Below the pieces are notes generated by a model that was given only the letters and a program-made list of their open reading frames with translations, was not told the origin of the DNA and made no database searches. Position numbers and translations under genes: made by a program. A stretch of DNA of 64,000 nt, taken from the NCBI RefSeq assembly GCF_002160135.1, contig NZ_NFJZ01000009.1, positions 96,150 through 160,149 on the forward strand, read 5' to 3'. The DNA is from Lachnoclostridium sp. An196. GTDB lineage: Bacteria > Bacillota > Clostridia > Lachnospirales > Lachnospiraceae. Position 1 is the stretch's first letter; each line of letters opens with the position of its first letter. This document shows, in pieces, positions 17,914-48,828 of the stretch.

Positions 17914-17926
17914 GGAGGACATACAG

Positions 17927-19900: not shown

Positions 19901-19913
19901 GGAGGACACACAA

Positions 19914-20471: not shown

Positions 20472-20475
20472 ATCC

Positions 20476-20494
20476 CGGGGGCCTCGTGCCCCCG
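20476..20494. other. GC hairpin just after VR2
   Basis: CGGGGGC (20476-20482) and GCCCCCG (20488-20494) with loop CTCGT, 27 bases after VR2 and just past the stop codon. No T run follows. DGR targets in other phages carry such a hairpin 3' of VR that aids homing. Confidence 0.6.
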
Positions 20495-20527
20495 CCATAG
20501 ACTATCTACAAAGCAAGGAGGACAACG

Positions 20528-21016
20528 ATGGAGCCTATCACTATACGCTGGGAGACCGGCCACATGACCATCAACCCGGACGCCTTTTTCCCAACAAGTG
20601 CAGCCAGGATCCGGAAGCTCCTCCGGGTGGTCGCCCTGGACTTTGAGCATCAGGACGTCATCCGGATGCAGCTGGCCGGGGCCTGCGAGAGCCGAGCCCA
20701 GGAGCTCCTGGACGGCCGCAAGAGCCTCGCCAACGAGGCAGTAAACCACCACCAAAAAGCAGCGGACCTGGAGCCGCAGATCGAGACGGCCAAGCGCCGG
20801 ATCACTACCCTCCGGGCCTGCATCAAAGAGCAGCCGAAGAAGGCCCGACAGCTGGGCTACCCTGAACGGCTGCACGAGGAGCGGGAGCAGCTGAAGAAGC
20901 TGACCGCCGAGCGCTCCGGAGCTCTCTCAGCCTTCCGGAAGAAAAAGCGCGAGTTCGAGGCCGCTGAGGCCACAGCTGAGAAATTAAGACAGAACGCGGA
21001 GGTGCTGAGACCATGA
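20528..21016 (+). CDS. Coiled-coil early protein, unknown
   Basis: A 162-residue protein with a short N-terminal part (MEPITIRWETGHMTINPDAF) and long amphipathic helices from about residue 35 to the end, rich in Glu, Lys, Arg and Ala. No catalytic motif. It overlaps the start of the VapE-like gene in an ATGA, so the two are coupled; a helper role in replication is possible from position only. Shine-Dalgarno AAGGAGGACAACG. Confidence 0.7.
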   Translation: MEPITIRWETGHMTINPDAFFPTSAARIRKLLRVVALDFEHQDVIRMQLAGACESRAQELLDGRKSLANEAVNHHQKAADLEPQIETAKRRITTLRACIKEQPKKARQLGYPERLHEEREQLKKLTAERSGALSAFRKKKREFEAAEATAEKLRQNAEVLRP

Positions 21017-23484
21017 CCAACACAGCGGAAAAACTCACCCTGCCCCTGTTCAGGGTCAAGTACAACGGCGACCTCCTGATCTCGACCGGCCGCAGCCGCT
21101 TCGAGACCTCCTGGAAAAATAAGACCATGAGCTGGGCGGCTCTCCTGAATAAACTCTCCCGCTCCATGGAGACCACGGAGACCCACGCCGAGTACATGAA
21201 GATGAGCAAGGAGCAGCAGGACAAGATCAAGGACATCGGCGGCTTCGTCGGCGGTCATCTGAGGGATGGCCGCCGCAAGACCGGCTACGTCACGGCCCGC
21301 CAGCTGCTCACCCTCGACCTGGACTTCCCTCCGGCCGAGTTCTGGGACAACATCATCGACAACCTGGAGATCGACAACGCCCTGGCGGTCTACTCCACAC
21401 ATAAGCACACCAAGGCGAAGCCCCGCTACCGTCTGATCATGCCCCTCGACAGAGAGGTCACGCCGGACGAGTACGAGGCCATCGCCCGCAAGATCGCCGA
21501 GAAGATCGGCATCGACTACTTCGACGACTCCACCTTCCAGCCGACCCGTCTGATGTACTGGCCGAGCCATAGCGTGGATGTCGAGCCCTTCTTCCAATAT
21601 TACGACGCCCCCTTCCTGGCGGCCGACTCCATCCTGGCCGAGTACCCGGACTGGACCGACACCAGCTACTGGCCGGAGTCGTCCCGCATGGCCGGGATCC
21701 GAAAGCGCCAAGCAGACAAACAAGGCGACCCGCTGGCCAAGAAGGGCATCGTGGGCGCCTTCTGCCGCACCTATACGATCACCCAGGCCATCGCCAAGTT
21801 CCTGCCGGACGTCTACACCCAGACGGCCAAAGAGGACCGCTACACCTACGCAGCCGGCTCAACTGCTGCCGGCCTCGTGGTCTATGACGGCGACGTCTTC
21901 GCCTACTCCAACCACAGCACCGACCCGGCCGGCGGCCAGCTCTGCAACGCCTTCGACCTCGTCCGCCTCCACAAGTTCAGCGACCTGGACGACGGCAAGG
22001 AGGACAGGAGCGGCAGCGAGCGCCCCAGCTACAAGGAGATGGCCAAGTTCGCCGCGGAGGATCCGAGCGTTCGCATGACGCTCGCGAGCGACGCCAGGGC
22101 GAAGGCCGTGCTCGACTTCGAGGGCGAGCCGCTGCCGGAGCCAGAGGAAGACTGGGAAACCAAGCTCGTCCTCTCTGAGAGCGGATCCATCAAGCCGCTG
22201 ATCACCAACGCCGTGCTGATCCTGGAGAACGACCCCGCCCTTCAGGGGATCCGGCACAATGAGCTGAGCGGCGCCATCGAGGTCAAGGGCAAGCTGCCCT
22301 GGAGCCGCCCGAGCAAATACTGGCGCGACGCTGACGACGCCCTCCTCTATGGATATGTGGTCGACCAGTACGGCGTCCAGTTCCCGGAGAATCGCTTCAC
22401 CAAGGCGCTGACCATCGTCACGGACAAGCGCCGCTTCAACCCGCTGCGGGAGTACATCCAAAACCTGCCCGAGTGGGACGGCGTGCCGAGAGTGGACACG
22501 CTGTTGGTCGACTATCTGGGCGCCGAGGACTCCGCCTACGTCCGCGCCGTCACCAGGAAGACCCTGATCGGAGCCATCCAGCGCGTGCTGGAGCCTGGCT
22601 GCAAGTTCGACACGGTCCTGGTCCTGGATGGCAAGCCCGGCATCGGCAAGAGCACCCTGCTCCGGAAGCTGGGCGGGAAATGGTTTAGTGACTCCCTCAG
22701 TCTGGCCGACACCAGGGACAAGACCGCAGCTGAGAAGCTGCAAGGCGTCTGGATCATGGAGATCGGCGAGATGCAGGGCACCAGGAAGGCCGACGTCGAC
22801 GTCATGAAGGGCTTCATCAGCCGCCAGGTGGACGAGTACCGCGCAGCCTACGGCCGCGTGGTGGAGCGCCACCCGAGGACAGCCATCATCTGCGGCACCA
22901 CAAACAGCACCACCGGCTTCCTGAGAGACGCCACCGGCAACCGGCGCTTCTGGCCCGTCACCGTCAACGGCGGGGGCTCACTCTCTGTCTGGGATATGAC
23001 CGAGGAGACCCGCAGCCAGATCTGGGCCGAGGCCATGATCTTCGTGGCGGAGGGCGAGACCTCCTACCTGGACGCAGCCATGGAGAAGGAAGCGGCCAAG
23101 GCGCAGCAGGCGGCGCTCATGTACGACGAGCGCGAGGGCCAGGTCATCGACTACCTGGACACCCTGCTCCCGGAGGACTGGTACAACTGGGACCTGAATC
23201 AGCGCGTGGACTATTTCCAGCAGCGTGACGTTCTGAGCCCGGACACCAAGGGCACCATGCAGCGCACGAAAGTCAGCGCCATGGAGATCTTCTGCGAGTG
23301 CTTCGGACGCCCAAAGAACTACTGGACAAGGAAGGACGGCGACGAGATCGCCGCCATCATGGCAAGGCTGCCAGAGTGGGAAAGACCATCAAACGCCACC
23401 ATGAGGATCAAGGACTACGGCAAGCAGCGCGTGTTCGTCCGGGCTGCTGGTAACGGTAACGAGGCCCCAGGATCGGGATCGTGA
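21013..23484 (+). CDS. VapE-family phage primase/helicase
   Basis: An 823-residue virulence-associated E type protein. The N-terminal half is a primase-polymerase-like region (VTARQLLTLDLDFP near residue 97, then YRLIMPLDREVTPDEYEAIA). The C-terminal half is a D5/VapE-like AAA+ ATPase with Walker A DGKPGIGKSTLLRKL near residue 538, WIMEIGEM (Walker B region) and GTTNSTTGFLRDATGNRRFW. It would unwind and prime DNA at the phage origin. A cluster of GGTAAC repeats starts in its last codons and continues downstream. Confidence 0.88.
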   Translation: MTNTAEKLTLPLFRVKYNGDLLISTGRSRFETSWKNKTMSWAALLNKLSRSMETTETHAEYMKMSKEQQDKIKDIGGFVGGHLRDGRRKTGYVTARQLLTLDLDFPPAEFWDNIIDNLEIDNALAVYSTHKHTKAKPRYRLIMPLDREVTPDEYEAIARKIAEKIGIDYFDDSTFQPTRLMYWPSHSVDVEPFFQYYDAPFLAADSILAEYPDWTDTSYWPESSRMAGIRKRQADKQGDPLAKKGIVGAFCRTYTITQAIAKFLPDVYTQTAKEDRYTYAAGSTAAGLVVYDGDVFAYSNHSTDPAGGQLCNAFDLVRLHKFSDLDDGKEDRSGSERPSYKEMAKFAAEDPSVRMTLASDARAKAVLDFEGEPLPEPEEDWETKLVLSESGSIKPLITNAVLILENDPALQGIRHNELSGAIEVKGKLPWSRPSKYWRDADDALLYGYVVDQYGVQFPENRFTKALTIVTDKRRFNPLREYIQNLPEWDGVPRVDTLLVDYLGAEDSAYVRAVTRKTLIGAIQRVLEPGCKFDTVLVLDGKPGIGKSTLLRKLGGKWFSDSLSLADTRDKTAAEKLQGVWIMEIGEMQGTRKADVDVMKGFISRQVDEYRAAYGRVVERHPRTAIICGTTNSTTGFLRDATGNRRFWPVTVNGGGSLSVWDMTEETRSQIWAEAMIFVAEGETSYLDAAMEKEAAKAQQAALMYDEREGQVIDYLDTLLPEDWYNWDLNQRVDYFQQRDVLSPDTKGTMQRTKVSAMEIFCECFGRPKNYWTRKDGDEIAAIMARLPEWERPSNATMRIKDYGKQRVFVRAAGNGNEAPGSGS

Positions 23485-36721: not shown

Positions 36722-37357
36722 TTGATCGACGGACTGCCGGAACAGGTCGAGATCGCAGGCCAGCAGGTCCCGATCAGCAGTGACTTCCGCACGGGCATTT
36801 TGTTCGAGGAACTACTGCAAGACCCAGGGCTGGACGACCTGGAGAAGCTCCAGACCGCTCTGCACCTGTATTTCCCCGGCGTCGTCTTCGACTATGACGT
36901 GCTCGACGAGGCCCTCAGCAGGCTGGTCTGGTTTTACCGCTGCGGCACGGATCCCGCAGAGACGACGGGCGAAAAGTCCGGAGCCGCCGAAGAAGATCCG
37001 CCTTTTTCCTACGAGCACGACGCTGACTATATTTACTCCGCGTTTATGCAGGCCTACGGTCTGGATCTGGCGCGGCATCCCCTCCACTGGTGGCAGTTCC
37101 GAGCACTCTTTAGATCGCTCCCGGAAGACACTCAGCTGGTCAAGATCATCGGCTACCGCACGATGAAGATCCCGGCCAAGATCTCCAAGGAGCAACGGCA
37201 GCACTATGAGCACATGAAGCGCGTCTATGCGCTCCCTCAGTCGGCTGACCGACAGCAGCTCGAAAGTGACCTTAACAAACTACTTATGAACGGCGGAAAC
37301 CCCGCCGCACTTTTGAATGGTAGCGAGGTACGGTCATGGCATCAGATGGAACCCTAA
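36722..37357 (+). CDS. Tail assembly chaperone, Gp15 family
   Basis: A Gp15-family protein of about 211 residues (IDGLPEQVEIAGQQVPISSD, FRTGILFEELL, HWWQFRALFRSLPEDTQLVK, RTMKIPAKISKEQRQHYEHM). The usual family start MNLL is here CTG AAT TTA TTG from 36713, so translation begins at CTG 36713 or TTG 36722, or arises only by -1 frameshift from the preceding gene. No good Shine-Dalgarno is present. It overlaps the tape measure gene by 22 bases. Confidence 0.8.
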   Translation: MIDGLPEQVEIAGQQVPISSDFRTGILFEELLQDPGLDDLEKLQTALHLYFPGVVFDYDVLDEALSRLVWFYRCGTDPAETTGEKSGAAEEDPPFSYEHDADYIYSAFMQAYGLDLARHPLHWWQFRALFRSLPEDTQLVKIIGYRTMKIPAKISKEQRQHYEHMKRVYALPQSADRQQLESDLNKLLMNGGNPAALLNGSEVRSWHQMEP

Positions 37358-40155
37358 GATTTGATACAAGCCTGGACTCCGGCGGTCTACAGTCGGGGAT
37401 GGGCAAGGTCGCGAACATCGCCCAGCAGGCGCTGGGCGTGTTCAGCGGCCAGATGATGACCAGGGCAGTCGATAGCCTGGTCAACCTCGGTAAGACGGCC
37501 CTCGATAGCGTGGGCGCTCTCGAACAGAACGTGGGCGGCGTCGAGACGCTGTTCGGCAACACAGCCGACGCAGTCATCGCCGCAGCAGACAGAGCCTACC
37601 AGACGGCGGGAATGTCTGCCAACGATTACATGAGCACGGTCACGAGTTTCTCGGCGTCCCTGCTCCAGTCCCTCAGCGGAAATACTGAGGAAGCCGCCAA
37701 GGTGGCGGACATGGCCATCATCGACATGGCCGACAATGCGAACAAGATGGGCACCTCCATGGACCGCATCCAGGACGCCTATCAGGGCTTCGCAAAGCAG
37801 AACTACACCATGCTGGACAATCTGAAGCTGGGCTACGGCGGCACGAAGACCGAGATGGAGCGACTGCTGGCCGACGCTCAGGAGCTGACGGGCGTCAAGT
37901 ATGACATCAACAACCTGAACGACGTATACCAGGCGATCCATGTCATCCAGGAGGAGATGGGGATCACCGGCACGACAGCGAAAGAGGCATCGGAGACCCT
38001 GGAGGGCTCTCTGGCTTCCGCCAAGGCCGCCTGGGATAACTTTATGAATGGGTCGAGCGACGCCGACCAGCTGGCCGACGCCTTCGCCACAGCCGCCGAC
38101 AACGTCGTCAGAGTTTTGGGCGAACTCATCCCGCGCTTCGCTGAGACGCTGCCGGCTCTGGCTGGTGCCATCGTGAAGCAGATCCCGGATCTGGTCTCTG
38201 CCATCGTGCCTGCCGTGCTTTCTGCCGGCAAGAGTATCATGGAGCAGCTCCGTGACGTCGTGCAGAACTTTGACTTTGTGGCTGCTGCCGAGACAATCGT
38301 CGAAGGCATCACGGACTTCATCAGCAGCGACGGCCTGGGCTCTTTCCTGGGCTGCCTGGTGGATATTTTCACCGGTATCGTCAACGGCATCAGCTCCATG
38401 CTGCCGACATTACTGCCGGCCCTCGTCGAGCTGATCGCCTACACCGTGACCACACTGATCGACCAGCTGCCGGCGATCCTGGACTGCGCTCTCCAGCTGA
38501 TCATGGGCCTGGCGGACGGCATCCTTGCAGCGCTTCCCGTGTTGATCGACGCCCTGCCGGAGATCATCAGCGCCATCGTGCAGTTCCTGATCTCGGCCGT
38601 CCCGCAGATCATTGACGCCGGCATCGAGCTCCTGATGGCACTGGTGGACGCCCTTCCCGTCATCATCGACGCGCTGGTAGACGCCCTTCCGCAGATCATC
38701 GAGTCCGTCGTGACGACTCTGGCGGCATCCGCGCCCGATATTCTGGCGGCTGGCATCGAGCTCCTGATGGCTCTGATCGAGGCCATCCCGACTATCGTCA
38801 TCGAGCTGGTCGCAGCTCTGCCCGACATCATTACGGCAATCATTGACGGCCTCATCGCGGCCGGTCCGCAGGTCCTGGAGAGCGCCAAAGAGCTCTGGGG
38901 CCAGATCAAGGAGGCCGTGCCGGATATTATCGCCAAGATCGGCGAGGCCGTGCCAGAGATCATCAACGGCATCGTGACTGGACTGGCCAACGGAGCCTCC
39001 CAGGTATGGGACGCAGCGTGTGAGCTGGGCAGCAACATCCTCAACGGCATCAAGGACTTCCTCGGCATCAACAGTCCGAGCACGGTCATGGCCGAACAGG
39101 GTGGCTACATTGTAGACGGTCTGATCAATGGCCTGGCAACTCTGCCCGATCAGGTGGCTCAGGTATTTTCTGAGATCCTGGCGGACCTTCAGGAGTGGGG
39201 CGCCGACATGGCGACCAAGGCTCAAAAGGCCATCACCGACATGGGCACCAAGATCTCCAACGTCCTGAGACAGCTGCCGGGACAGGTGTGGACGCACCTG
39301 GTCAACGCAGTGACCAAGGTCGTGCAGTGGGGCCAGCAGATGCTCAGCAACGCCTCGACCGCAATGAGCAATATGCTCAGCAAGGTCAACAGCATCATCC
39401 AGGAGCTGCCCGGAAAGATCTGGACGCACCTGGTCAATGCCGTCAATAAGGTGGTGGCATGGGGCCAGCAGATGGTCTCCAACGCTTCGACCGCTGCGAG
39501 CAATATGCTCAGCAAGGTCGCCAGCACGCTCCAGCAGCTCCCGGGCAAGGTCTGGGACTATCTGAGCCAGGCGGCCCAGAAGGTCGTCACCTGGGGCACT
39601 CAGCTGGCTCAGAAGGGCGCCGCAGCGGCGACCCAGCTGTTCAACTCCATCGTCAACGGCCTGGCAAGCCTGCCGAGCAAGATGGCGGAGATCGGCAGCA
39701 ATATCATCAGCGGCATCTGGAACGGCATCAGCTCCGGCTGGAGCTGGCTGACGAATAAGGTCAGCAGCCTGGCCAGCAGCCTGCTGGACGCAGCGAAGGA
39801 CGCCCTCGGCATTAACTCTCCGTCTAAAGAGTTCGCGGACGAGGTCGGCCGCTGGATCATGCCCGGCGTGAGCAAGGGGCTGGACAAGTCTATGCCTGCG
39901 ACACTGAAGGACATGGAAGCCAAGGCCAGCGAGCTCGTCAGCGCCATGCGGGCCGAGATGTCGGCGACCGCCGGCAAGCTTTCCGTCGGAGCCTCGCACG
40001 CAGCGGGGCTGAGGATGGCAGGCGCCGGCACCACCGTCTACTATGACAATCGCATGGAGCAGAGCAACACCTACAACGTGCCCGTGGCTACACCTTCCGA
40101 AGTGGCCAAGACACAGCGGGAGGCTCTGCGGAACATGGTCGGAGGTGTGAAATGA
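37336..40155 (+). CDS. Tail tape measure protein
   Basis: A 939-residue tape measure that sets tail length and is ejected with DNA. The N-terminus has MTRAVDSLVNLGKTALDSVG and the conserved block with GGTKTEMERLLADAQELTG. Residues about 250-560 are very hydrophobic (Ile/Ala/Leu-rich helices), a membrane-inserting region. Three 44-residue tandem repeats lie at about 646-777. At roughly 0.15 nm per residue the tail would be near 140 nm; this is an estimate from the general rule. Confidence 0.93.
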   Translation: MASDGTLRFDTSLDSGGLQSGMGKVANIAQQALGVFSGQMMTRAVDSLVNLGKTALDSVGALEQNVGGVETLFGNTADAVIAAADRAYQTAGMSANDYMSTVTSFSASLLQSLSGNTEEAAKVADMAIIDMADNANKMGTSMDRIQDAYQGFAKQNYTMLDNLKLGYGGTKTEMERLLADAQELTGVKYDINNLNDVYQAIHVIQEEMGITGTTAKEASETLEGSLASAKAAWDNFMNGSSDADQLADAFATAADNVVRVLGELIPRFAETLPALAGAIVKQIPDLVSAIVPAVLSAGKSIMEQLRDVVQNFDFVAAAETIVEGITDFISSDGLGSFLGCLVDIFTGIVNGISSMLPTLLPALVELIAYTVTTLIDQLPAILDCALQLIMGLADGILAALPVLIDALPEIISAIVQFLISAVPQIIDAGIELLMALVDALPVIIDALVDALPQIIESVVTTLAASAPDILAAGIELLMALIEAIPTIVIELVAALPDIITAIIDGLIAAGPQVLESAKELWGQIKEAVPDIIAKIGEAVPEIINGIVTGLANGASQVWDAACELGSNILNGIKDFLGINSPSTVMAEQGGYIVDGLINGLATLPDQVAQVFSEILADLQEWGADMATKAQKAITDMGTKISNVLRQLPGQVWTHLVNAVTKVVQWGQQMLSNASTAMSNMLSKVNSIIQELPGKIWTHLVNAVNKVVAWGQQMVSNASTAASNMLSKVASTLQQLPGKVWDYLSQAAQKVVTWGTQLAQKGAAAATQLFNSIVNGLASLPSKMAEIGSNIISGIWNGISSGWSWLTNKVSSLASSLLDAAKDALGINSPSKEFADEVGRWIMPGVSKGLDKSMPATLKDMEAKASELVSAMRAEMSATAGKLSVGASHAAGLRMAGAGTTVYYDNRMEQSNTYNVPVATPSEVAKTQREALRNMVGGVK
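39271..39666 (+). repeat. Three 132-bp tandem repeats in the tape measure gene
   Basis: Units start at 39271, 39403 and 39535, exactly 132 bp (44 codons) apart. Each begins (Q/E)LPG(Q/K)(V/I)W and includes a KVV-WG block. The first two are close (WTHLVNAV in both); the third is more diverged. Confidence 0.85.
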
Positions 40156-41072
40156 CAGTAAATACATTAACCATAGAGCTGACCTGTAACGGCAAGACCC
40201 TCAAAATGGGACCGGGCGAGGACATCGACATCACTGCCGTGTCCGGCCTGGAGTCCTCCGAGGTCGAGATCAGCACATCAGACAACGCCCTGGTGGACGG
40301 GGCGTCCGTCGATGGCAAGAAGATCAAGCCAAGGCCCATCCACATCGAGGCCAGTTTTAGAAGCAACAAAAACAACCCGGAAAACCGGGCGAAAGTGATC
40401 AAGTTTTTCAATCCGAAGTACACCGGCAAGGCGCGCATCACCAACATGGGCGTCAGCCGCAACATCGAGTACGAGCTGGAGGGCTGGACCTTCGCGGCCA
40501 TGAAAAACCTGGACAACAAGCTGAAGATCCTGGTGGATCTGATCTGTCCGGACCCGTATATGCTCAACGTGGACAACTTCGGCAAGAACATGGCGAACAT
40601 CTCGCCGCTGTTCGCTTTCCCCTGGAGGATGCTCAGTAAAAGGATGGAGACGGGCAAGCTGGACTACAAGGCCGAAGCCCGTGGCCTCCTCCTGGGCGGC
40701 AGCACGATGGGCTATAGAACGCTGCACAAAGAGGTGGTGCTGAGCAATGACGGCGACGTTCCGACAGGCGTCCAGATCCAGTTCATCGCCACCAGGGGCG
40801 CCGTGGTCAACCCTAAGATCACAAACACCGGCACGGGCCAGTTCATGCGCGTGAATGTCACGATGCAGACCGGCGACGTGCTTCTCATCGACACCAACGA
40901 CCGGCACCAGGTCATCACTCTGAACGGCGTCAACTATTACCAGCACATCGACCGCCGGAGTGAGCCCTTCAAGCTGGAAGTGGGCGACAACTATCTGGAG
41001 TACGACGCAGATGAGAACTACACCAACCTGGACGTCAATCTGTTCTACACTCCGAAGTATTTGGGGGTGTAG
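40152..41072 (+). CDS. Distal tail protein (Dit-like)
   Basis: A 306-residue protein right after the tape measure, where the distal tail hub Dit is encoded. N-terminal beta-rich domain (LTIELTCNGKTLKM, DGKKIKPRPIHIEASF, NIEYELEGWTFAAMKN) and C-terminal galectin-like part (GDVLLIDTNDRHQVITLNGV, YQHIDRRSEPFKLEVGDNYL). It connects tail tube to the tip. Starts by ATGA overlap with the tape measure. Confidence 0.85.
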   Translation: MTVNTLTIELTCNGKTLKMGPGEDIDITAVSGLESSEVEISTSDNALVDGASVDGKKIKPRPIHIEASFRSNKNNPENRAKVIKFFNPKYTGKARITNMGVSRNIEYELEGWTFAAMKNLDNKLKILVDLICPDPYMLNVDNFGKNMANISPLFAFPWRMLSKRMETGKLDYKAEARGLLLGGSTMGYRTLHKEVVLSNDGDVPTGVQIQFIATRGAVVNPKITNTGTGQFMRVNVTMQTGDVLLIDTNDRHQVITLNGVNYYQHIDRRSEPFKLEVGDNYLEYDADENYTNLDVNLFYTPKYLGV

Positions 41073-41075
41073 CGC

Positions 41076-42185
41076 ATGAATTTGATCATCCTCGACCAGA
41101 ACTTCGACACGCTGGGCGTCGTCAGCGTGTTCAATACACTCATCTGGGACCGCCGGTATTATGCCTCGGGCCTTTTTGAATTGCATACTCCCGCCGAGTT
41201 TTTCGAGCTGATGAACATCGGCCGCTATCTCTACCGGAACGACCGGAAGGACCTGGGCGTGATCCGAGAGGTCAACTTCGCCAGGGACGCCAAAGGCGCC
41301 CGGACAGCCTATTGCAAGGGCTACTTCTGCGAGGAGCTGCTGAACGACCGTGTGATCCATCCCCAGGTCAGCCTCTCCGGGACGCCGGAGAGCATCGGTC
41401 GGAAACTGGTGGACCGCTGCGTGATCAACCCGGCCGACACCAACCGCGGGATCCCACAGATACAGCTGGGGGCTCTGACAGGCGTCGGCACGAGCGTCAC
41501 GGTCACGGCCACCGGCGACAAGCTGGGCGACAAGCTCTACGAGATCGAGAAGACCCAGGAGCTCAGCCATCGCCTGGTCTACGACTACCTGACCAACACC
41601 CTCAGCTTCGAAGTGTGGAAAGGCAAGGACAGAACGGATGACCAGACCGAGAACAGCTGGGCGATCTTCTCCGACAGCTTCTACAACGTAAAAAATGCCG
41701 TGTATGACCGGGACGAGTCCGACTGCAAGAACTACGCCTACGTCGCCGGCGAGGGCGAAGGCTCCGCCCGCGTCATTGTGGAGGTGGATCTCCGCCAGAG
41801 TGCGGACGAGGAACGCCGGGAGCTCTGGGTGGATGCTCGGGATCTCCAGAGCACCTACCAGGACGAGGACGGCAACGAGCAGACCTACACGGCCGCACAG
41901 TACCAGGCGCTGCTCTACCAGCGCGGTCTGGAAAAGCTGGCAGAGTACGAGAAAATCGAGACGGTCAACAGCGACGTGGATCCCAGCGCCAACCTGACCT
42001 ACGGCGTGGACTTCGACCTGGGCGACCTCTGCACCTACCGCTACGCCGACGTCGGCATCGAGACCACCAAGCGGATCACTGAGATCCAGGAGGTCTACGA
42101 GGGCAGCAAGCAGACCCTCTCCGTTGTCTTCGGCAATGACCAGATGACCAGTATCACGAAAATCATCCAAAGGGAGGTATTTTAA
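41076..42185 (+). CDS. Tail-associated protein, ReqiPepy6 Gp37-like (Tal)
   Basis: A 369-residue protein of the siphovirus Gp37-like family: NTLIWDRRYYASGLFELHTP near residue 20, KGYFCEELLNDRVIHPQ near 85, and the C-terminal TYGVDFDLGDLCTYRYADV and KRITEIQEVYEG. It caps the tail tip and is next to Dit. No peptidoglycan hydrolase domain is attached. Confidence 0.85.
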   Translation: MNLIILDQNFDTLGVVSVFNTLIWDRRYYASGLFELHTPAEFFELMNIGRYLYRNDRKDLGVIREVNFARDAKGARTAYCKGYFCEELLNDRVIHPQVSLSGTPESIGRKLVDRCVINPADTNRGIPQIQLGALTGVGTSVTVTATGDKLGDKLYEIEKTQELSHRLVYDYLTNTLSFEVWKGKDRTDDQTENSWAIFSDSFYNVKNAVYDRDESDCKNYAYVAGEGEGSARVIVEVDLRQSADEERRELWVDARDLQSTYQDEDGNEQTYTAAQYQALLYQRGLEKLAEYEKIETVNSDVDPSANLTYGVDFDLGDLCTYRYADVGIETTKRITEIQEVYEGSKQTLSVVFGNDQMTSITKIIQREVF

Positions 42186-42186
42186 C

Positions 42187-43164
42187 ATGGCCATGAGATA
42201 CGGCTATTTTGACTCGGAGATCACCGGCGTGGACTCCGAGGGTATGCCTATTTTTGACAGAGCAGAGACGTCGGAACTGTTCCGCCTGCTCTTTTCCAAA
42301 CTGTTGACCAATGGCGTGCTGGCCAAGCCTGCCGACTGCTTCAAAGTTCTGGCAGGCGACACGGGCCTCACTGTTAAGGTCCAGCCCGGCTTCGGCCTGA
42401 TTAACGGCGCCTTCGCCTATGACCCCGCCGTCGCCATCTTCGAGCTGGCCGCAGCTCCTACGAGCTACAGCCGCATCGACCGCATCGTGCTGCGCTGCAA
42501 CTACCTGGAGCGCCTCTGCGAGATCATCGTGAAGACCGGCACGGCAGCGGCAACGCCCCAAGCTCCGGAGCTCATCCAGCCCGTCAGCGGCGACTACTAC
42601 GAGCTGGGCCTGGCGAATGTGACGATCAGCGCCAACCAGACCGTCATCACCCAGAGCTCCATCAGCGACACCCGCCCCAACAGCGCAGTCTGCGGCTACA
42701 TCACCCAGTTCATCGACAGCATCGACACCGAGGCCTTCTATGACCAGTTCAATGCCTTCTATGCTGAATTTGTGGCCAAGTCCAACGCCAGCTACTCCCA
42801 GTTCGAGCAGATGGCCAGGGCAGCCTATGACGGCTACACGGCCGCCATCGACGAGTACATCGAGGCGCTGGAGAACAAGGGCAACGCAGACCTGACCGCC
42901 ATCACGGAGGATCTGAAAGAGTTCCAGCGCACCAGCCAGAACGCCTTCAACGAGTGGTTTGCCACCGTGCAAGGCCTTCTGAACGAGGACGTGGCCGGCG
43001 AGCTCATCAACAAGACGAGCAACCTGGACGAGCGCCTGACCGCGCTGGAGTACATGATCATCCACAACGATCTGTTCACTCACATCGTTGACGATGACGG
43101 CAACCCGATCCTGGACGACGATGGCAACGCGATCATCGGCGACTGGAAATATAAAACCGCATAA
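42187..43164 (+). CDS. Tail-tip/baseplate fibre protein
   Basis: A 325-residue structural protein. The N-terminal 180 residues form a compact beta-rich part (MRYGYFDSEITGVDSEGMPI, VKVQPGFGLINGAFAYDP, SRIDRIVLRCNYLE) similar in pattern to upper baseplate proteins; residues 185-300 are a coiled coil; the end is acidic (DDDGNPILDDDGNAIIGDWK). It probably links the tail tip to the variable protein encoded next. Confidence 0.78.
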   Translation: MAMRYGYFDSEITGVDSEGMPIFDRAETSELFRLLFSKLLTNGVLAKPADCFKVLAGDTGLTVKVQPGFGLINGAFAYDPAVAIFELAAAPTSYSRIDRIVLRCNYLERLCEIIVKTGTAAATPQAPELIQPVSGDYYELGLANVTISANQTVITQSSISDTRPNSAVCGYITQFIDSIDTEAFYDQFNAFYAEFVAKSNASYSQFEQMARAAYDGYTAAIDEYIEALENKGNADLTAITEDLKEFQRTSQNAFNEWFATVQGLLNEDVAGELINKTSNLDERLTALEYMIIHNDLFTHIVDDDGNPILDDDGNAIIGDWKYKTA

Positions 43165-43175
43165 GGAGGAACATT

Positions 43176-44147
43176 ATGCAGATTGACGTAACAAACGGCA
43201 AACGCTTCACCGAGTACGACGCGCTGGCTGCCGTGGCCAGCGAGGAGGACGTTCTCCTGGTACGACTCGCAGACGGCACAGGCGTCAAGAGGATCCCTAT
43301 CAGCGCCATCAAGGCCTTCATCAACGGAGACCTGGATACGCTGGAAACTGAGGACAAGACCAGCCTGATCGCCGCCATCAACGAAGTCTTCGGCCTGGTA
43401 GGCACCAACGCCCAAGACATCAAAGCCCTGAAGGAGCTGACCGCAATGCTCGGCCAGACCGGTGCGTCCAGGGCCAACTCCTTCATCTATGAGCACGATC
43501 TCGGTGCCAGCTTCACCGCTGAGCAGTCTGCCGACATTCGTGCTGGCAAGTTCGAGAAGGTCCGCACCGGCGGCTACTGGACCATCAACAGCCGAAAATA
43601 CTGGGCCGCCCATGCTGACTATCGTCTGCACTGTGGGGACACAGAGCTGACTACCCATCATATGCTGGTCATTCCCGACAAGTCCTTCTATAACGGCGTG
43701 ATGAATGACGCCAACGACACGACCGGCTCCTACTACGGCAGCAAGATGAAGACCTCCGGCCTGGCTGATGCTCTGGCCACCATCAAGGCTGACTTCGGCG
43801 CAGACCACATCCTGACTCACAGGGCTCTCCTGGCCAACGCTATCAGCAATGGCGCCAGCTCCGGCTGGGCATGGTACGACAGCCAGATCGACCTGATGAA
43901 CGAGCACATGGTCTACGGCTCCTACGCATGGGGCGGCGGAGCGCAGAACGGCTACGACACTGGCATCGACAAGAGCCAGCTGGCTCTGTTCCAGGCACGC
44001 CCGGATCTGATCACGAACAGAGAGAACTGGTGGCTGAGAGACGTCCAGTCCGCGACGGCTTTCTGCGATGTCCCCAACTACGGCATTGCCTACAACTGTT
44101 ACGCCTCGTACTCCATCGGCGTCCGCCCGGCTTTCCTGATCTATTGA
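43176..44147 (+). CDS. DGR target protein 1: variable tail-tip receptor-binding protein
   Basis: A 323-residue protein that carries the main variable repeat. Residues 1-100 are a stalk (TEYDALAAVASEEDVLLVRL, then a helical stretch); the rest is a C-type-lectin-like/DUF6273-like domain (GGYWTINSRKYWAAH, HHMLVIPDKSFYNGV, NWWLRDVQSATAF) ending SYSIGVRPAFLIY. The last 35 codons match the DGR template; eight of ten template Asn codons differ (A, D, P, Y, I, Y, Y, Y). It follows the tail fibre gene and precedes avd, TR and RT. It most likely binds the host surface, by analogy with phage BPP-1 Mtd. Confidence 0.92.
   Translation: MQIDVTNGKRFTEYDALAAVASEEDVLLVRLADGTGVKRIPISAIKAFINGDLDTLETEDKTSLIAAINEVFGLVGTNAQDIKALKELTAMLGQTGASRANSFIYEHDLGASFTAEQSADIRAGKFEKVRTGGYWTINSRKYWAAHADYRLHCGDTELTTHHMLVIPDKSFYNGVMNDANDTTGSYYGSKMKTSGLADALATIKADFGADHILTHRALLANAISNGASSGWAWYDSQIDLMNEHMVYGSYAWGGGAQNGYDTGIDKSQLALFQARPDLITNRENWWLRDVQSATAFCDVPNYGIAYNCYASYSIGVRPAFLIY
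44043..44130 (+). repeat. DGR variable repeat VR1
   Basis: 88 bases aligned without gaps to the template (44760-44847). Over the 83 bases shared by all three copies, 10 of 22 template adenines differ and one of 61 other bases (TGG in TR, TGT here). The 3' segment CTCCATCGGCGTCCGCCCGG is identical. Confidence 0.95.
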
Positions 44148-44155
44148 TCAAAAAT

Positions 44156-44176
44156 CCCGGCCCCTTGTGGGCCGGG
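44156..44176. other. GC hairpin just after VR1
   Basis: Perfect 8-bp stem CCCGGCCC (44156-44163) with GGGCCGGG (44169-44176), loop CTTGT, 25 bases past VR1 and eight past the stop codon. No T run follows. Same layout as the hairpin after VR2, including a C-T-x-G-T loop. Confidence 0.7.
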
Positions 44177-44203
44177 TAAATCTAATCAAGGAGATAAGAT
44201 AGC

Positions 44204-44731
44204 GTGTCAGACATCCCTAAAAGTAAACGGGCCCATTCTAATCTGGAAGCGCACCATCAGGCGCTCACGATCCGGAGGATGATCGCGGTCGAGCTCCTCA
44301 GCAGCTTCGCCTATAGCGAGAAGAAGCTGGAGGCAGCTATCAGAAAACAGACCGCACACGTCCAGGATCCGGAGCACCGGGAGGAAGTCGCTGCGGCCAT
44401 CCGCAGCCTGGAGGACGACTACGCCTGCTGGTTTATCAAGAGACACCGCGACCGTGTGGACGATCTCTGCTGCGACATCGCCCAGCATCTCAGGGCTGCC
44501 AATACTATCTGGCCGTCGTACCGCTTCGAGTATGACGACAGACGCAACGAGCTCAATCAGGCGCTGAAGTGCTGCAACCAGCTCCAGGACGAGCTCCAAT
44601 ACATCGCCGAAGCGCTGCCGGCCGACAAAAACCGGTATATGAACATCGTGCTCGAAGTCGAGAAGCTGTTCAACATGGTGAAGAAGCTCCGGCAGTCTGA
44701 CAACCGCTTCCTGAAGCACCTGAAAACCTAA
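44204..44731 (+). CDS. avd: Avd-like DGR accessory protein
   Basis: A 175-residue, almost wholly helical basic protein between VR1 and TR, the place of the accessory variability determinant. The C-terminal 110 residues (DLCCDIAQHLRAANTIWPS, RRNELNQALKCCNQLQDELQ, IVLEVEKLFNMVKKLRQSDN) fit the four-helix bundle of Avd, which binds the reverse transcriptase and template RNA. It is longer than typical Avd (about 110-130 residues) by an N-terminal helical segment. GTG start with AAGGAGATAAG upstream. Assignment rests on position and helical pattern. Confidence 0.8.
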   Translation: MSDIPKSKRAHSNLEAHHQALTIRRMIAVELLSSFAYSEKKLEAAIRKQTAHVQDPEHREEVAAAIRSLEDDYACWFIKRHRDRVDDLCCDIAQHLRAANTIWPSYRFEYDDRRNELNQALKCCNQLQDELQYIAEALPADKNRYMNIVLEVEKLFNMVKKLRQSDNRFLKHLKT

Positions 44732-44759
44732 CACCTATAGGGTGGCCTCTGTTTGTGCC

Positions 44760-44847
44760 GTCCAGTCCGCGACGAATTTCTGCAATGTCAACAACAACGG
44801 CAATGCCAACAACTGGAACGCCTCGAACTCCATCGGCGTCCGCCCGG
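44760..44847 (+). repeat. DGR template repeat TR
   Basis: The invariant template. Read in the frame of the targets it has ten AAY (Asn) codons among about 28, including AAC AAC AAC. It matches VR1 over 88 bases and VR2 over 83, with changes almost only at A. It lies in the 260-base gap between avd and RT; the flanking bases (44732-44759 and 44848-44991) probably belong to the template RNA. Confidence 0.95.
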
Positions 44848-44991
44848 ATTTCACAACCGCACTACATTCTACGGGCAAAGCTCCCGCATGCGGCTATGGG
44901 AAAGGAGAGGCCATCCGTCCAGCGTCCTCGCTGGTAAATACTAACCAGGACGCTCCCGGTTACGACCGATGGGGCTAACGCGTGGTTTTTT

Positions 44992-46293
44992 ATGAATGTA
45001 TTCTATGATGCAAATTTAATTTATGACGCCGGCACCAAGGCCATGAAAAGCAGCAAGTTCAAGCGCAGCACCCAGCTGTTCGAGATGACGCAGCTGCTGA
45101 CCACGGCCCACATCCGGCGCGACTTTATGGACGGGGCATACCGCCCAGATCCCGGGACCAAGTTCCCGATCAACGAGCGCGGGCATCAGCGCTACATCAC
45201 CAGCAACACCATGGTGGATAAGACCGTCAACCACCTCCTCTGTGACGAGGTCCTGACTCCGGCGATCAGCAAGTATCTGATCTACGACAACGGCGCCTCC
45301 CAAAAGGACAAGGGCGTGGCCTTCCACCGCAGACGCTTCGAGGCGCATCTGCATCGGTATTACATGGAACACGGCTCCAACGAGGGCTACATCCTGCTGG
45401 TGGATTATTCCGGCTATTATGCCAACATACCGCACGACAAGTGCATCGAGGTCCTCGACCAGTTTCTGGAGCGAGAGGTCGAAGATCCGGAGACGCTGCT
45501 GATCGCTGAGATGCTGACGCGCCTGATCTTCAAGACCTTCGAGCAGGACGTCTCCCGCTTCTCAGACGAGGAGATCGCGGCCATGATGACCGGCAAGGTC
45601 AACCCGATGCTCAACTGCGGCGTGGATCCGGAGCTGCTGACCGGCGAGAAGATGCTCAGGAAGGGCGTGGACATAGGCTCGCAGCCTTCCCAGAACATCG
45701 GCATCATCTACCCCTACCAGGTGGACAACTACGCCAAGATCGTCCGGAGCATCCGCCACTATGGCCGCTACACCGACGACTTCTACGTCATCGCAGACTC
45801 CAAGGAGTTCCTGCTGAATGTGCTGGAAGGCTTCAGGAAGGAGGCTGCAGCGTATGGCCTGATCATCAACGAAAAGAAGACCCGGATCGTGAAGCTCTCC
45901 TCTCAGTTCAGACACCTGCAGGTGTGCTACTCACTGACGGAGTCCGGCCGCCTGATCCGGAAGATCCACCCGAAGAACATCACCCGGGAACGCCGGAAGC
46001 TGAAGGCGTACAAGCGCCTGCTGGACGCCGGTCGGATCGACTACCCAACCGTCGAGAACTCGTTCAAGTCCTGGCTGGGCAGTCACTACAAAATTATGTC
46101 ACACGACCAAATCTACAACATGAGCAGCTTCTACTATGAGCTGTTCGGAAGGAGACCAAAATGGAAAAAAGGACATGGAAGATTACACTGGCTGATGGCA
46201 CATCCCTCGACGGCCTCAACCTCAACGGGAACAACTTCATCAGCTCCACCGCTGTCACCGAGGACACCTTCGCCGGCAAACTCTCCAGCGTGA
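44992..46293 (+). CDS. rt: DGR reverse transcriptase
   Basis: A 433-residue reverse transcriptase. The catalytic aspartate motif A is YILLVDYSGYYANIPH (Asp138); the DGR-type motif 4 GSQPSQ is at 229-234; motif C is YTDD (260-263). It copies the template RNA with errors at adenines, giving cDNA that replaces VR. From about residue 390 the frame overlaps the next gene by 133 bases, and its Ser/Thr/Pro-rich end looks like an out-of-frame reading of that gene, so the functional protein probably ends near YYELFGRRPKW. No maturase or other domain is attached. Confidence 0.94.
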   Translation: MNVFYDANLIYDAGTKAMKSSKFKRSTQLFEMTQLLTTAHIRRDFMDGAYRPDPGTKFPINERGHQRYITSNTMVDKTVNHLLCDEVLTPAISKYLIYDNGASQKDKGVAFHRRRFEAHLHRYYMEHGSNEGYILLVDYSGYYANIPHDKCIEVLDQFLEREVEDPETLLIAEMLTRLIFKTFEQDVSRFSDEEIAAMMTGKVNPMLNCGVDPELLTGEKMLRKGVDIGSQPSQNIGIIYPYQVDNYAKIVRSIRHYGRYTDDFYVIADSKEFLLNVLEGFRKEAAAYGLIINEKKTRIVKLSSQFRHLQVCYSLTESGRLIRKIHPKNITRERRKLKAYKRLLDAGRIDYPTVENSFKSWLGSHYKIMSHDQIYNMSSFYYELFGRRPKWKKGHGRLHWLMAHPSTASTSTGTTSSAPPLSPRTPSPANSPA

Positions 46294-46511
46294 CCATCGA
46301 GGGGCCCGACGGCACCGAGATCCACGAGGACATGAAGCTGGTCCAGATCAGCAAGGTCGGCAAGAGCTACTGGTTTATCCTGGCCGAGAAGACGGCTGAG
46401 GAAAAGCAGAAGGAACTCGCCGCAGCTGCTCTGGCCACCAACGCCAACAGCATCACCGACCTTCAGCTCGCTCTGGCTGAGGTCTATGAAATGATTATCG
46501 GAGGTAAATAA
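46161..46511 (+). CDS. Small phage protein after the RT, unknown
   Basis: A 116-residue protein with a beta-rich start (KRTWKITLADGTSLDGLNLN, VTIEGPDGTEIHEDMKLVQI) and a helical end (EEKQKELAAAALATNANSIT). It resembles proteins between tail and lysis genes of clostridial phages. Start has GGAAGGAGACC at good distance, so it is real although it overlaps the RT frame by 133 bases. Function unknown. Confidence 0.75.
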   Translation: MEKRTWKITLADGTSLDGLNLNGNNFISSTAVTEDTFAGKLSSVTIEGPDGTEIHEDMKLVQISKVGKSYWFILAEKTAEEKQKELAAAALATNANSITDLQLALAEVYEMIIGGK

Positions 46512-46513
46512 CT

Positions 46514-46615
46514 ATGGCTAAAGTTTACGCAGCCCTCATCAAGAAGGGGCTCAAAACCATCGACGACGTGCCCGAAAATCTGCGCGACGAAGTCCGCGCG
46601 CTCCTGGAGGAGTAA
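46514..46615 (+). CDS. Tiny CD1375-like phage protein (33 aa)
   Basis: A 33-residue protein beginning MAKVYAALIKKGLKTIDDVP and ending RALLEE. It matches the pattern of CD1375-type mini-proteins (Y-x-x-LI-x-KG-x-x-T-x-x-DVP). GGAGG lies upstream at 46499-46503. A second copy of the same pattern follows at 46662. Confidence 0.7.
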   Translation: MAKVYAALIKKGLKTIDDVPENLRDEVRALLEE

Positions 46616-46661
46616 GATGATCCGGCGCTTCAGATCCTGGCTCAGAAAGGAGGTGAACAAC

Positions 46662-46790
46662 ATGGCAGTCATCTACGTCGCCCTGATCGTCAAGGGCAAG
46701 CGTACCTACGACAGCGTCCCTGACCTGATCAAGCCCCAGGTCAAGGAGATGCTGATCGACCTGGAACTGGCAGAGCTCGTCACTGAGTAA
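46662..46790 (+). CDS. Second tiny CD1375-like protein (42 aa)
   Basis: A 42-residue paralogue of the preceding protein: MAVIYVALIVKGKRTYDSVP, then an acidic end LAELVTE. A strong Shine-Dalgarno AAAGGAGGTGAAC precedes ATG 46662; the frame is open from an ATG at 46617 but that has a poorer site. Confidence 0.7.
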   Translation: MAVIYVALIVKGKRTYDSVPDLIKPQVKEMLIDLELAELVTE

Positions 46791-46799
46791 AGCCCACAA

Positions 46800-46827
46800 T
46801 GCCCCCACGGAGATATTCGTGGGGGCA
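46800..46827. other. Hairpin before the holin gene
   Basis: Perfect 10-bp stem TGCCCCCACG with CGTGGGGGCA, eight-base loop, no T run. It may stabilise or process the mRNA ahead of the lysis genes. Confidence 0.5.
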
Positions 46828-46864
46828 TAATTCTAAGCAAATAAAAAGAAGGAAGGTACACAAC

Positions 46865-47305
46865 ATGAAAACTGGAATTTGCACAGCAGTGGGAGTCGTG
46901 GGCGGCTTCATCGCCAGCCTTTTCGGAGGCTGGGACGCAGCTCTGACCACGCTCCTGATCTTCATGGGCGTGGACTACGCCACCGGCCTCATCGTTGCCG
47001 GCGTGTTTCACAGATCCCAGAAGTCCACAGACGGCGCCCTGGAGAGTCGCGCCGGATGGAAGGGTCTCTGCCGTAAGGGCACGACTCTCCTGGTGGTGCT
47101 GGTAGCCTGCCGCCTCGATCTGGTCACGGGCTCCACATTCATCAGAGACACGACGATCATCGCCTTCATCGCCAATGAGACGATCAGCATTATCGAAAAC
47201 GCCGGACTGATGGGCGTGCCTATCCCTGCCGTTGTGGTGAAGGCCATCGACATCCTGAAACAGAAGGCAGAGGGCGACGCTAACACCAGCCCAGGCAAGG
47301 AGTAA
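46865..47305 (+). CDS. Phage holin (toxin secretion/phage lysis family)
   Basis: A 146-residue membrane protein of the Cph1/TcdE-like holin family. Hydrophobic segments lie near residues 5-22 and 25-46 (TTLLIFMGVDYATGLIVAG), 75-90 and 100-130, with ESRAGWKGLCRKGTTLLVVL and AIDILKQKAEG typical of the family. It makes holes that let the endolysin through. Shine-Dalgarno AAGGAAGG precedes ATG 46865; the endolysin gene begins four bases after its stop. Confidence 0.9.
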   Translation: MKTGICTAVGVVGGFIASLFGGWDAALTTLLIFMGVDYATGLIVAGVFHRSQKSTDGALESRAGWKGLCRKGTTLLVVLVACRLDLVTGSTFIRDTTIIAFIANETISIIENAGLMGVPIPAVVVKAIDILKQKAEGDANTSPGKE

Positions 47306-47308
47306 GCC

Positions 47309-48760
47309 GTGAAGGCGACAGGGTCCTCCACCGAGAGGACCATCTGGAACTACTTCTGCTGCAAAGGTTTCAGCCCGGCCGGTGTGGCCGGGCTGATGGG
47401 CAACCTCTACGCCGAGAGCGGGCTCAATCCGATAAACCTCCAGAACACCTACGAGAAGCGCCTGGGCCTCACGGACGCCGAGTACACGGCCGCCGTGGAC
47501 TCCGGGAGCTACTCCAACTTCGTCCGAGACAGCGCTGGCTACGGCCTCGCGCAGTGGACATACTGGAGCCGCAAGGAGGCCATGCTCAACTACGCCCGGA
47601 AGACCGGCGCGTCCATCGGCGACCTAATGATGCAGCTCGATTTCATGTTCCAGGAGCTGAAGGGCTACGTGGCCGTCTTCCAGGTGCTCCGGACAGCCCG
47701 GACCGTGAAGGAGGCGTCCGACATTGTGCTGACCAAGTACGAGCGCCCGGCCAACATGAGCAACGCCGTCAAGGTAAAACGGGCCGGCTTCGGCCAGGCA
47801 TACTATGACGCCTACGCAAACACTACAGCAACCCCAGAGAAGGAGGAGATTACCATGAGCAACAGCCCTCTGGTAACGTACACCAACATCACCAAGAACA
47901 AGACCAGCCCCCGCAACCACGCCATCGACACCATCACGATCCACTGCATCGTGGGCCAGTGGACGGCGAAGCAGGGCTGCGACTACTTCGCCACTACCGA
48001 CCGCGAATGCTCCGCCAACTATGTCGTCGGCAAGGATGGCTCCATCGGTCTGTCCGTCGATGAGGCAGATCGCTCCTGGTGCACTTCCAGCCGTGAGAAC
48101 GACAACCGCGCCATCACCATCGAAGTCGCCAGCGACACCGAGCACCCCTACGCTGTCACCGACGCAGCCTACGCCGCACTGATCAAGCTGGTGGCCGACA
48201 TCTGCAAGCGCAACGGCATCAAGAAGCTGGTCTGGTCCACCAACAAGACCGACCGCGTCAACCACGCCAACGGCTGCAACATGACCGTGCACCGCGACTA
48301 CGCCAACAAGGCCTGCCCGGGCCAGTACCTCTACGACCGCCACGGCGCCATCGCTGCGGCCGTCAATGAGATCCTGGGCCCCGGCACTACCCAGGCGCCG
48401 GAAGCGGCTCCGGAGCCCGTCCAGGGCTTCCCTGCGACGCCCTTCACTGTCCGCGTCATCATTCCGGATCTGAACTACCGCAAGGGCCCTGGCATGAGCT
48501 ACGCGGTCAGAGGCCAGACCGGCAAGGGCGTCTTCACCATCACCGAGGTGCAAGACGGCTGGGGCAAGCTGAAAAGCGGCGCCGGCTGGATCTACCTCGA
48601 AAACCCTGACTACTGCACCATCCAGGGCGTCGCAGCGAAGCCGGCCGAGCCGGATCCTGCCGACGTGCTGGCGCAGGAGATCGCCGGCAAGGTGAAGGCC
48701 TCCGGCCTGGATCCTGCTGACGTTCTGAACAGGGTCGAGAAGATCCTGGGCGTGGCATGA
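47309..48760 (+). CDS. Two-enzyme endolysin: lysozyme-type domain + amidase + SH3
   Basis: A 483-residue cell-wall hydrolase. Residues 1-170 are a phage tail lysozyme-type domain (GVAGLMGNLYAESGLNPINL, GYGLAQWTYWSRKEAML). Residues about 185-370 are an amidase_2 N-acetylmuramoyl-L-alanine amidase (DTITIHCIVGQW, NRAITIEVAS, HRDYANKACPG). Residues 385-440 are an SH3-like binding domain (LNYRKGPGMSYAVRGQTGKG) and the end is helical. GTG start with AAGGAG. An internal ATG at 47855 has a better Shine-Dalgarno (GAAGGAGGAG) and would give a 301-residue amidase-SH3 protein. Confidence 0.92.
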   Translation: MKATGSSTERTIWNYFCCKGFSPAGVAGLMGNLYAESGLNPINLQNTYEKRLGLTDAEYTAAVDSGSYSNFVRDSAGYGLAQWTYWSRKEAMLNYARKTGASIGDLMMQLDFMFQELKGYVAVFQVLRTARTVKEASDIVLTKYERPANMSNAVKVKRAGFGQAYYDAYANTTATPEKEEITMSNSPLVTYTNITKNKTSPRNHAIDTITIHCIVGQWTAKQGCDYFATTDRECSANYVVGKDGSIGLSVDEADRSWCTSSRENDNRAITIEVASDTEHPYAVTDAAYAALIKLVADICKRNGIKKLVWSTNKTDRVNHANGCNMTVHRDYANKACPGQYLYDRHGAIAAAVNEILGPGTTQAPEAAPEPVQGFPATPFTVRVIIPDLNYRKGPGMSYAVRGQTGKGVFTITEVQDGWGKLKSGAGWIYLENPDYCTIQGVAAKPAEPDPADVLAQEIAGKVKASGLDPADVLNRVEKILGVA

Positions 48761-48782: not shown

Positions 48783-48828
48783 ATAAAGCAAAAGAACCCC
48801 GGCACCCGCCGGGGTTCTTTTGCTTTAT
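48783..48828. terminator. Long bidirectional terminator at the right prophage end
   Basis: A perfect 21-bp inverted repeat with loop ACCC: ATAAAGC..CCGGC (48783-48803) and GCCGG..GCTTTAT (48808-48828). T-rich and A-rich outer ends allow termination both ways. It ends the lysis operon and, in the circular phage, would also end the recombinase gene, whose reconstructed stop is at 48825-48827. Confidence 0.9.

Follow-up and report, generated by a model that had tools for sequence, protein, structure and literature searches.

Which genes does the diversity-generating retroelement (DGR) of a prophage in Lachnoclostridium sp. An196 rewrite? We analyzed a window of 64,000 nucleotides (nt) from this bacterium (assembly GCF_002160135.1, contig NZ_NFJZ01000009.1, positions 96,150-160,149 of the forward strand; coordinates below are those of the window). 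It carries a DGR with a single template repeat (TR) which, adenine sites apart, matches two phage genes at their 3' ends: a gene of the tail module, and another 24 kb away, between a DNA polymerase gene and a VapE-type gene. Judging from these repeats, the DGR likely rewrites both genes by adenine-mutagenic reverse transcription (we put the probability at roughly 0.85), which would give the phage two variable binding surfaces, one predicted on the tail and one predicted inside the cell. The parts of the system are listed here (VR, variable repeat; RT, reverse transcriptase; IMH, initiation of mutagenic homing; aa, amino acids; ORF, open reading frame).

19914-20471, plus strand: target 2, a 185-aa single-domain DUF6273 protein, predicted to be C-type-lectin-like (ORF; DUF6273 1.8e-4, under the cut-off)
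20366-20453, plus strand: VR2, 24.4 kb from the TR
20476-20494, plus strand: GC hairpin after target 2, CGGGGGC-CTCGT-GCCCCCG
43176-44147, plus strand: target 1, a 323-aa tail-module protein (ORF) whose C-terminal DUF6273 (predicted C-type-lectin-like) domain holds VR1
44043-44135, plus strand: VR1
44156-44176, plus strand: GC hairpin after target 1, CCCGGCCC-CTTGT-GGGCCGGG
44204-44731, plus strand: Avd-type accessory protein, 175 aa, a predicted helical bundle
44760-44852, plus strand: TR, with ten AAY codons and an IMH*-like 3' end, without a GC hairpin after it
44849-44991, plus strand: end of the TR and TR-RT spacer, with conserved RNA structure
44992-46293, plus strand: DGR reverse transcriptase, 433 aa, with IGSQPSQ and YTDD (RVT_1 5.6e-12; 8ub7_A; motifs)

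The sequence-only reading had proposed a complete DGR in a prophage at 43176-46293, with the target gene and VR1, a hairpin, an Avd-type gene, the TR and the RT in this order. All these parts were found as described; the description was incomplete, however, as it left out VR2 and the second target, which lies outside the tail module. TR and VR1 do align without gaps, at an offset of 717. Over the 82 bases common to TR, VR1 and VR2 (TR 44766-44847), VR1 differs from the TR at 10 of 22 adenines and at 1 of 60 other bases (the 61 given originally reflects a one-base difference in span); over the 88 bases compared in that reading, the counts are 10 of 23 and 1 of 65 (Fisher p 2.4e-6). VR2 differs from the TR at 11 of 22 adenines and at none of the 60 other bases (Fisher p 5e-8). 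The ten AAY codons reported for the TR are present in the VR frame and, since VR1 and VR2 are in the same reading frame, they hit the same place in both proteins. Just beyond the common span, position 44848 is an A in the TR (GAT), with GCT in both VRs, which looks like a fixed difference between IMH and IMH* rather than a mutated site. On the IMH side, both VRs have GGCTTTCCTGATC and the TR has GGATTTCACAACC.

The assignment to the BPP-1 kind of DGR was supported by checks on the type of RT and on the variation of VR1, which were run in part and failed to refute it. A profile built from six DGR RTs, that of the window included, had as its best match in PDB the chain 8ub7_A (4.8e-37), by its entry title the RT of a solved DGR ribonucleoprotein, ahead of the best group II intron RT (6e-17) and of retron Ec86 (1e-5). 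8ub7_A was also the best match of the window RT alone (2.2e-6, with a maturase at 3e-4). Both motifs noted earlier are in place, GSQPSQ from residue 229 and YTDD at 260. The first belongs to an xGxxxSQ motif (IGSQPSQ) that we take to be a sign of a DGR-kind RT; another RT of the same genome (L040) has QGSGVSP and is, by this motif, presumably of group II type. A further RT in this genome (contig C4, L041) has VGNLTSQLF and YMDD, unlike L040 and the RTs of both DGRs of the genome (the second is described below). We also observed an insertion of about 35 residues before GSQPSQ (residues ~190-226, window ~45560-45670), common to the window RT and that of phage Fontainebleau and absent from the four other aligned DGR RTs. 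The profile of the Avd-type protein retrieved no DGR protein among PDB sequences (best 0.0023, mL100).

The spacer between TR and RT (44849-44991) folds as RNA into 36 pairs, with 97.5% of cells paired across 11 sequences. Of the 36 pairs, 17 are changed on both sides in one or more of the 11, vs 8.0 in shuffles; this structure is likely part of the DGR RNA. An Rfam scan of 42000-47000 gave two chance-level matches only, below the gathering score, and no match over that score in the spacer.

If both VRs are rewritten, relatives of the two targets should vary where the template has adenines. In a protein database clustered at 90%, target 1 had 2154 relatives and target 2 had 1549. Of the 120 listed for each, we kept for target 1 the 113 with its length of 323 aa (7 were dropped), and for target 2 the 18 that have its 185 aa and also match it at 120 or more of the first 150 residues. 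At the AAY codons, entropy averaged 3.21 bits in VR1 and 2.71 bits in VR2, against 0.145 bits (17 codons) and 0.079 bits, respectively, at the VR codons free of A; thus the adenine bias holds among VR1 relatives too. Over all residues outside A-bearing codons, the means were 0.225 bits for target 1 and 0.170 bits for target 2. The residues at AAY sites could be encoded by NNY in 190 of 190 cases for VR2 and in 1138 of 1140 for VR1. With the window included, 113 of 114 VR1 strings and all 19 VR2 strings are distinct; because of the clustering at 90%, the listed relatives are enriched for different VRs, although the contrast within a VR should be independent of that.

The pairing of a small target with a tail target is not confined to the window. 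Queried with an alignment of small targets, viral contigs yielded 53 loci and genomes 33; an RT was found by profile in 19 of 40 viral records (many of them fragments) and in 28 of 30 genomes. We searched for a fitting TR in 53 small-target loci with an RT locus, including the window and three named phages, counting a fit only where 5 or more mismatches fell at A and these made up 70% or more of all its mismatches. A TR fitting the small target was found in 35 of the 53, and in all 35 the RT locus held a further VR-like copy. The VR2 mismatches comprise 15 at A and no other in phages Fontainebleau and Shimadzu, 15 and 1 in Dulem virus 34, and 15 at A of 17 in Lelie. Among the 17 TR-confirmed genome loci, 12 have the small target on the same contig as the RT, 20-52 kb apart, and 5 have it on another contig. 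Four loci (L064, L091, L095 and L100, with L064 and L100 looking like one phage) have two small VR copies each, so that, from their sequences, one TR may serve three targets in L064/L100, L091 and L095; L069 has a TR and two small VRs. In a [Ruminococcus] torques genome, the small target and the fitting TR and RT were found on separate contigs (L098 and L146, contigs C35 and C26), which may reflect either targeting in trans or a break in the assembly. A 215-aa relative of the small target (P0003) has two VR-like stretches in tandem, a possible assembly artefact.

What would the second surface bind? The AlphaFold model of target 2 is confident (pLDDT, the predicted local distance difference test, 93.4); Foldseek alone gave one match below 0.001, with C-type lectins at 0.16 and worse. 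The gene lies 13 nt downstream of the DNA polymerase gene and upstream of the VapE-type gene, 17-24 kb from the tail genes, and its product has no evident signal peptide when read by eye. From this position and the apparent lack of a signal peptide, target 2 would act inside the cell. Similar conclusions have been drawn for the second target of Quimbyvirus, seemingly non-structural in the available text of Benler et al. (PMC8008677), and for four species in the accessible part of a 2025 gut prophage paper (PMC12629997).

Alternatively, target 2 could belong to the virion as well, perhaps as an adhesin of the head or tail whose gene happens to lie in the early region, and both surfaces diversified by the DGR would then be outer ones. 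We regard this as possible but doubtful. The fold of target 2 resembles phage receptor binders, and the part of the Tentaclin paper available to us (PMC10743442) suggests a receptor role for its small DUF6273 target. The small-target neighbourhoods bear on both sides. We scanned the genes up to two positions away from 27 small targets, 98 in all, after dropping near-duplicate loci (L107, L108 and L115) and ten minus-strand ORFs. They include DUF6353 (24), DNA polymerase A (7), VapE (7), single-strand binding (4) and Erf (2) genes, as well as methylase genes; the DUF6353 neighbours at many loci look hydrophobic by eye, and one of the 98 matches a cell wall hydrolase and one a phage metallopeptidase, which count on the side of a virion protein. 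Against this, no head or tail family occurs in the 17 Pfam families or in the first 25 of 66 PHROG families of the neighbours, the small target of Shimadzu lies between methyltransferase and Erf/SSB (single-strand binding) genes, and the remote target of the second DGR of this genome adjoins a match to N6/N4 DNA methylases. In the window, the distance of target 2 from the tail genes argues likewise, and its single domain leaves no spare part for attachment to a virion. The case for action in the cell is stronger for the clade of the window than for the clade with DUF6353, on the basis of gene position.

In the window, a GC hairpin follows each VR and none follows the TR, as expected if hairpins mark the recipients. 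Folded as DNA, the VR1 hairpin region (44130-44200) has a z of -5.6; the whole 101-nt VR2 hairpin region is not unusually stable (z -0.87). Across the loci, a perfect stem stands 3' of VR2 in 31 of 31 tested (5-8 bp, with at least 6 pairs in 18) and 3' of VR1 in all 30 where VR1 was found (5-10 bp), whereas after the TR, among the 31 tested, there was no stem in 13 and only an A/T-rich one in 18. The loop reads CYYG[TC] in 28 of 31 VR2 and 29 of 30 VR1 hairpins, vs 23 of 5000 random prophage 75-mers. Stems arise more easily by chance: 1106 of the 5000 have at least 5 pairs with at least 4 G/C, and 330 have at least 6 with five G/C. The loop is thus a stronger sign than the stem. Dulem virus 34 has a GAAA loop after both VRs; the loops differ within Shimadzu and the phage of L118, where VR1 is followed by CTCGT and VR2 by a loop of 6 nt. 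From these sequences, the loop may be recognised by the machinery of each DGR itself. A promoter and terminator scan of 19700-20700 found neither, so that the VR2 hairpin is not a terminator by the pattern used.

Two further explanations concern VR2 as a recipient. In one, VR1 and VR2 would exchange sequence by ordinary recombination, complementary DNA (cDNA) reaching only one of them; this we consider very unlikely. The repeats are near-identical outside the A sites, and in some loci VR2 is nearer VR1 than the TR (86% vs 80% in L072, 86% vs 79% in L086). However, of the six A sites changed in both VRs of the window, five carry different bases. Haplotypes argue in the same direction. Haplotype A comprises the window and one identical IMG/VR contig, and haplotype B six IMG/VR contigs, of which five carry VR1 and the TR and four VR2, all the same and thus probably one strain. 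When A is compared with one of the B contigs, the TR shows no change (0 of 93 bases), VR1 differs at 16 of 93, 15 of them at TR adenines, and VR2 differs at 14 of 93, of which 10 are at TR adenines and the other 4 are its first four bases; the RT gene differs at 67 of 1302 and the Avd-type gene at 53 of 528. In haplotype B those first four VR2 bases are the TR-like GTCC, as a longer conversion tract from the template would leave them, and the VR2 differences as a whole would fit separate conversions. It is most improbable that VR2 is a fossil, no longer targeted, which arose when VR1 was once duplicated or through a single conversion long ago: it shares GGCTTTCCTGATC with VR1 beyond the TR, but the haplotypes differ at its TR-A sites and 5' edge with the same TR, its 19 strings, that of the window included, are all distinct, and its hairpin persists in 31 of 31 loci.

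Returning to the DGR as the agent that rewrites both genes, some observations weigh against this or narrow it. The pooled counts over the 35 loci (519 of 863 template adenines differing vs 14 of 2248 other bases) are partly selected, because matches were filtered on A mismatches. Eighteen of the 53 loci gave no TR, L097 and L102 falling narrowly below the 70% rule, and some phages are counted two times among the 53 (judged by the first 60 bases of the TR, 24 of the 35 are distinct). In 13 of the 31 hairpins after VR2 the stem is no longer than five pairs, a size common by chance. The best NCBIfam model for the window RT is a group II RT/maturase (group_II_RT_mat), yet at 50.1 bits vs a curated cut-off of 300; the retron_St85_RT model likewise scores below its own (16.8 vs 235 bits). 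Finally, DUF6353, the commonest neighbour, is no replication gene, so a "replication operon" fails as a description of the whole family.

By analogy with the BPP-1 DGR, TR RNA with its structured 3' spacer would be copied by the RT together with Avd, with errors at A; the cDNA would then replace VR1 or VR2, with the IMH and hairpin marking the recipient and sparing the TR. Given its gene position and signal-peptide reading, target 2 would be made with the replication proteins and would bind an intracellular partner, for which a host factor that varies, for instance a defence protein, is the most plausible candidate. More broadly, and as no more than a tentative proposal, early-region DUF6273 proteins could form a large class of intracellular hypermutated phage binders, in which one template keeps a tail receptor binder in step with an in-cell binder of such a fast-changing host factor, each DGR marking its targets by a matched hairpin loop. 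A literature search, which reached few subscription papers, turned up neither an account of the small early DUF6273 target as a cross-phage family nor one of the CYYG[TC] loop.

DGRs are known to have targets outside the tail, yet these are unexplained. The remote target here is a compact single-domain protein with a confident model, from a family of 1549 database clusters; its compactness and the widespread pairing make what non-structural DGR targets bind a question that can be asked in culture, for example with Acutalibacter muris lysogenic for phage Fontainebleau. Because both VRs are followed by hairpins whose loop hardly changes, remote targets can also be looked for by a simple rule on the sequence; by its own account, a survey based on short contigs would miss such targets (PMC8144416).

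The same genome encodes another, distinct DGR (contig C30:1-12000, L009), with a target, an Avd-type ORF, a TR and an RT. A repeat at C30:5618, considered as a third VR of the window TR, was rejected, being the TR of this second DGR. Over 80 bases, the VR near this TR departs from it at 7 of 22 adenines and at no other base. A remote VR lies on contig C7:8000-24000 (L257, minus strand), in a 331-aa protein with a DUF6273 match of 3e-10, and differs from the TR at 10 of 29 adenines and 0 of 76 other bases (p 7e-7). After this remote target comes an ORF of 127 aa with a match to the C-terminal region of N6/N4 DNA methylases, and 8-bp hairpins follow both VRs. We infer that C7 and C30 are halves of one prophage.

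The wider setting of the window DGR includes the following genes.

10854-11190: transfer-messenger RNA (tmRNA) gene
11116-12621, minus strand: integrase, at the left side of the prophage (phrog_95 3.5e-99), its 3' end overlapping the tmRNA gene
17855-19900, plus strand: DNA polymerase A family gene (DNA_pol_A 7e-23; phrog_17)
21013-23484, plus strand: VapE-like gene 3' of target 2 (VapE-like 1.2e-75; primase/helicase families in PHROG)
37336-42185, plus strand: tail genes 5' of the cassette, namely tape measure (phrog_58 2.4e-105), Dit-like (phrog_33 8.4e-24) and minor tail (phrog_538 1.4e-87)
47309-48760: endolysin gene, past which the prophage extends

The tape measure, Dit and minor tail matches bear out the placement of target 1 in the tail module. 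As the sequence-only reading proposed, it may sit at the tail tip, and its variation might then change the choice of receptor. Target 1 itself has a DUF6273 match of 2.3e-4, just under the cut-off, and a tail fibre PHROG match of 9.3e-4 at residues 49-77. Directly after the endolysin gene is a perfect 21-bp inverted repeat (48783-48828, arms 4 nt apart). No flanking direct repeats of at least 14 nt were found between 10.5-13.5 kb and 47-52 kb, and the attachment (att) sites and right end of the prophage were not placed. An IMG/VR contig of 38,392 bases has target genes, TR and RT identical to those of the window and starts, by arithmetic, at the same integrase.

Among known systems, the DGR of phage BPP-1 (mtd/avd/brt) has one target, and the window DGR two. 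They are alike in their A-limited TR/VR differences, the DGR-type RT, the Avd-type protein between VR and RT, the IMH difference, the GC hairpin after the VR and a target in the tail module. As far as the available text of PMC3240598 goes, the hairpin loops of BPP-1 and its kin are the 4-nt GRNA, vs the mostly 5-nt CYYG[TC] in the family of the window. The closest annotated relative is Acutalibacter phage Fontainebleau (ON453893), whose RT is 61% identical to that of the window. It has both targets, one TR and hairpins after both VRs, with target 1 in the same place and the small target between DNA polymerase I and helicase genes, as in the window; its VR sequences differ, and both its targets are annotated only as hypothetical. 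Roseburia phage Shimadzu (LR596903) also has a tail target and a small DUF6273 target, the latter in its Erf/SSB region, with one TR, but differs in its annotated P2-type tail genes and in its loop after VR2.

Faecalibacterium phages Lelie and CP11 (the latter known to us by the paper only) have large and small DUF6273 targets with one TR, as in the window, according to the accessible text of PMC11792537. The small VR of Lelie is 16 kb from the TR and away from tail genes; its RT is about 25% identical to that of the window, and its small target was not found with that of the window at 1e-5. The Quimbyvirus DGR, as presented in PMC8008677, likewise has two targets, one by tail fibre genes and the other far off, in a gene that seems to be non-structural, but this is a Bacteroides phage with an RT split over three frames, and nucleases and methyltransferases are encoded around its second target. 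A distal second VR is also described for four gut prophage species (PMC12629997), which are comparable by description rather than by sequence. The window has the features of this distal two-target type, namely one TR, a VR in the tail module and a remote VR outside it. Two-target phage DGRs with a distal target are already in print, and the window DGR is a further case; the larger point is that it has two targets, the early-region one coming from a widespread family.

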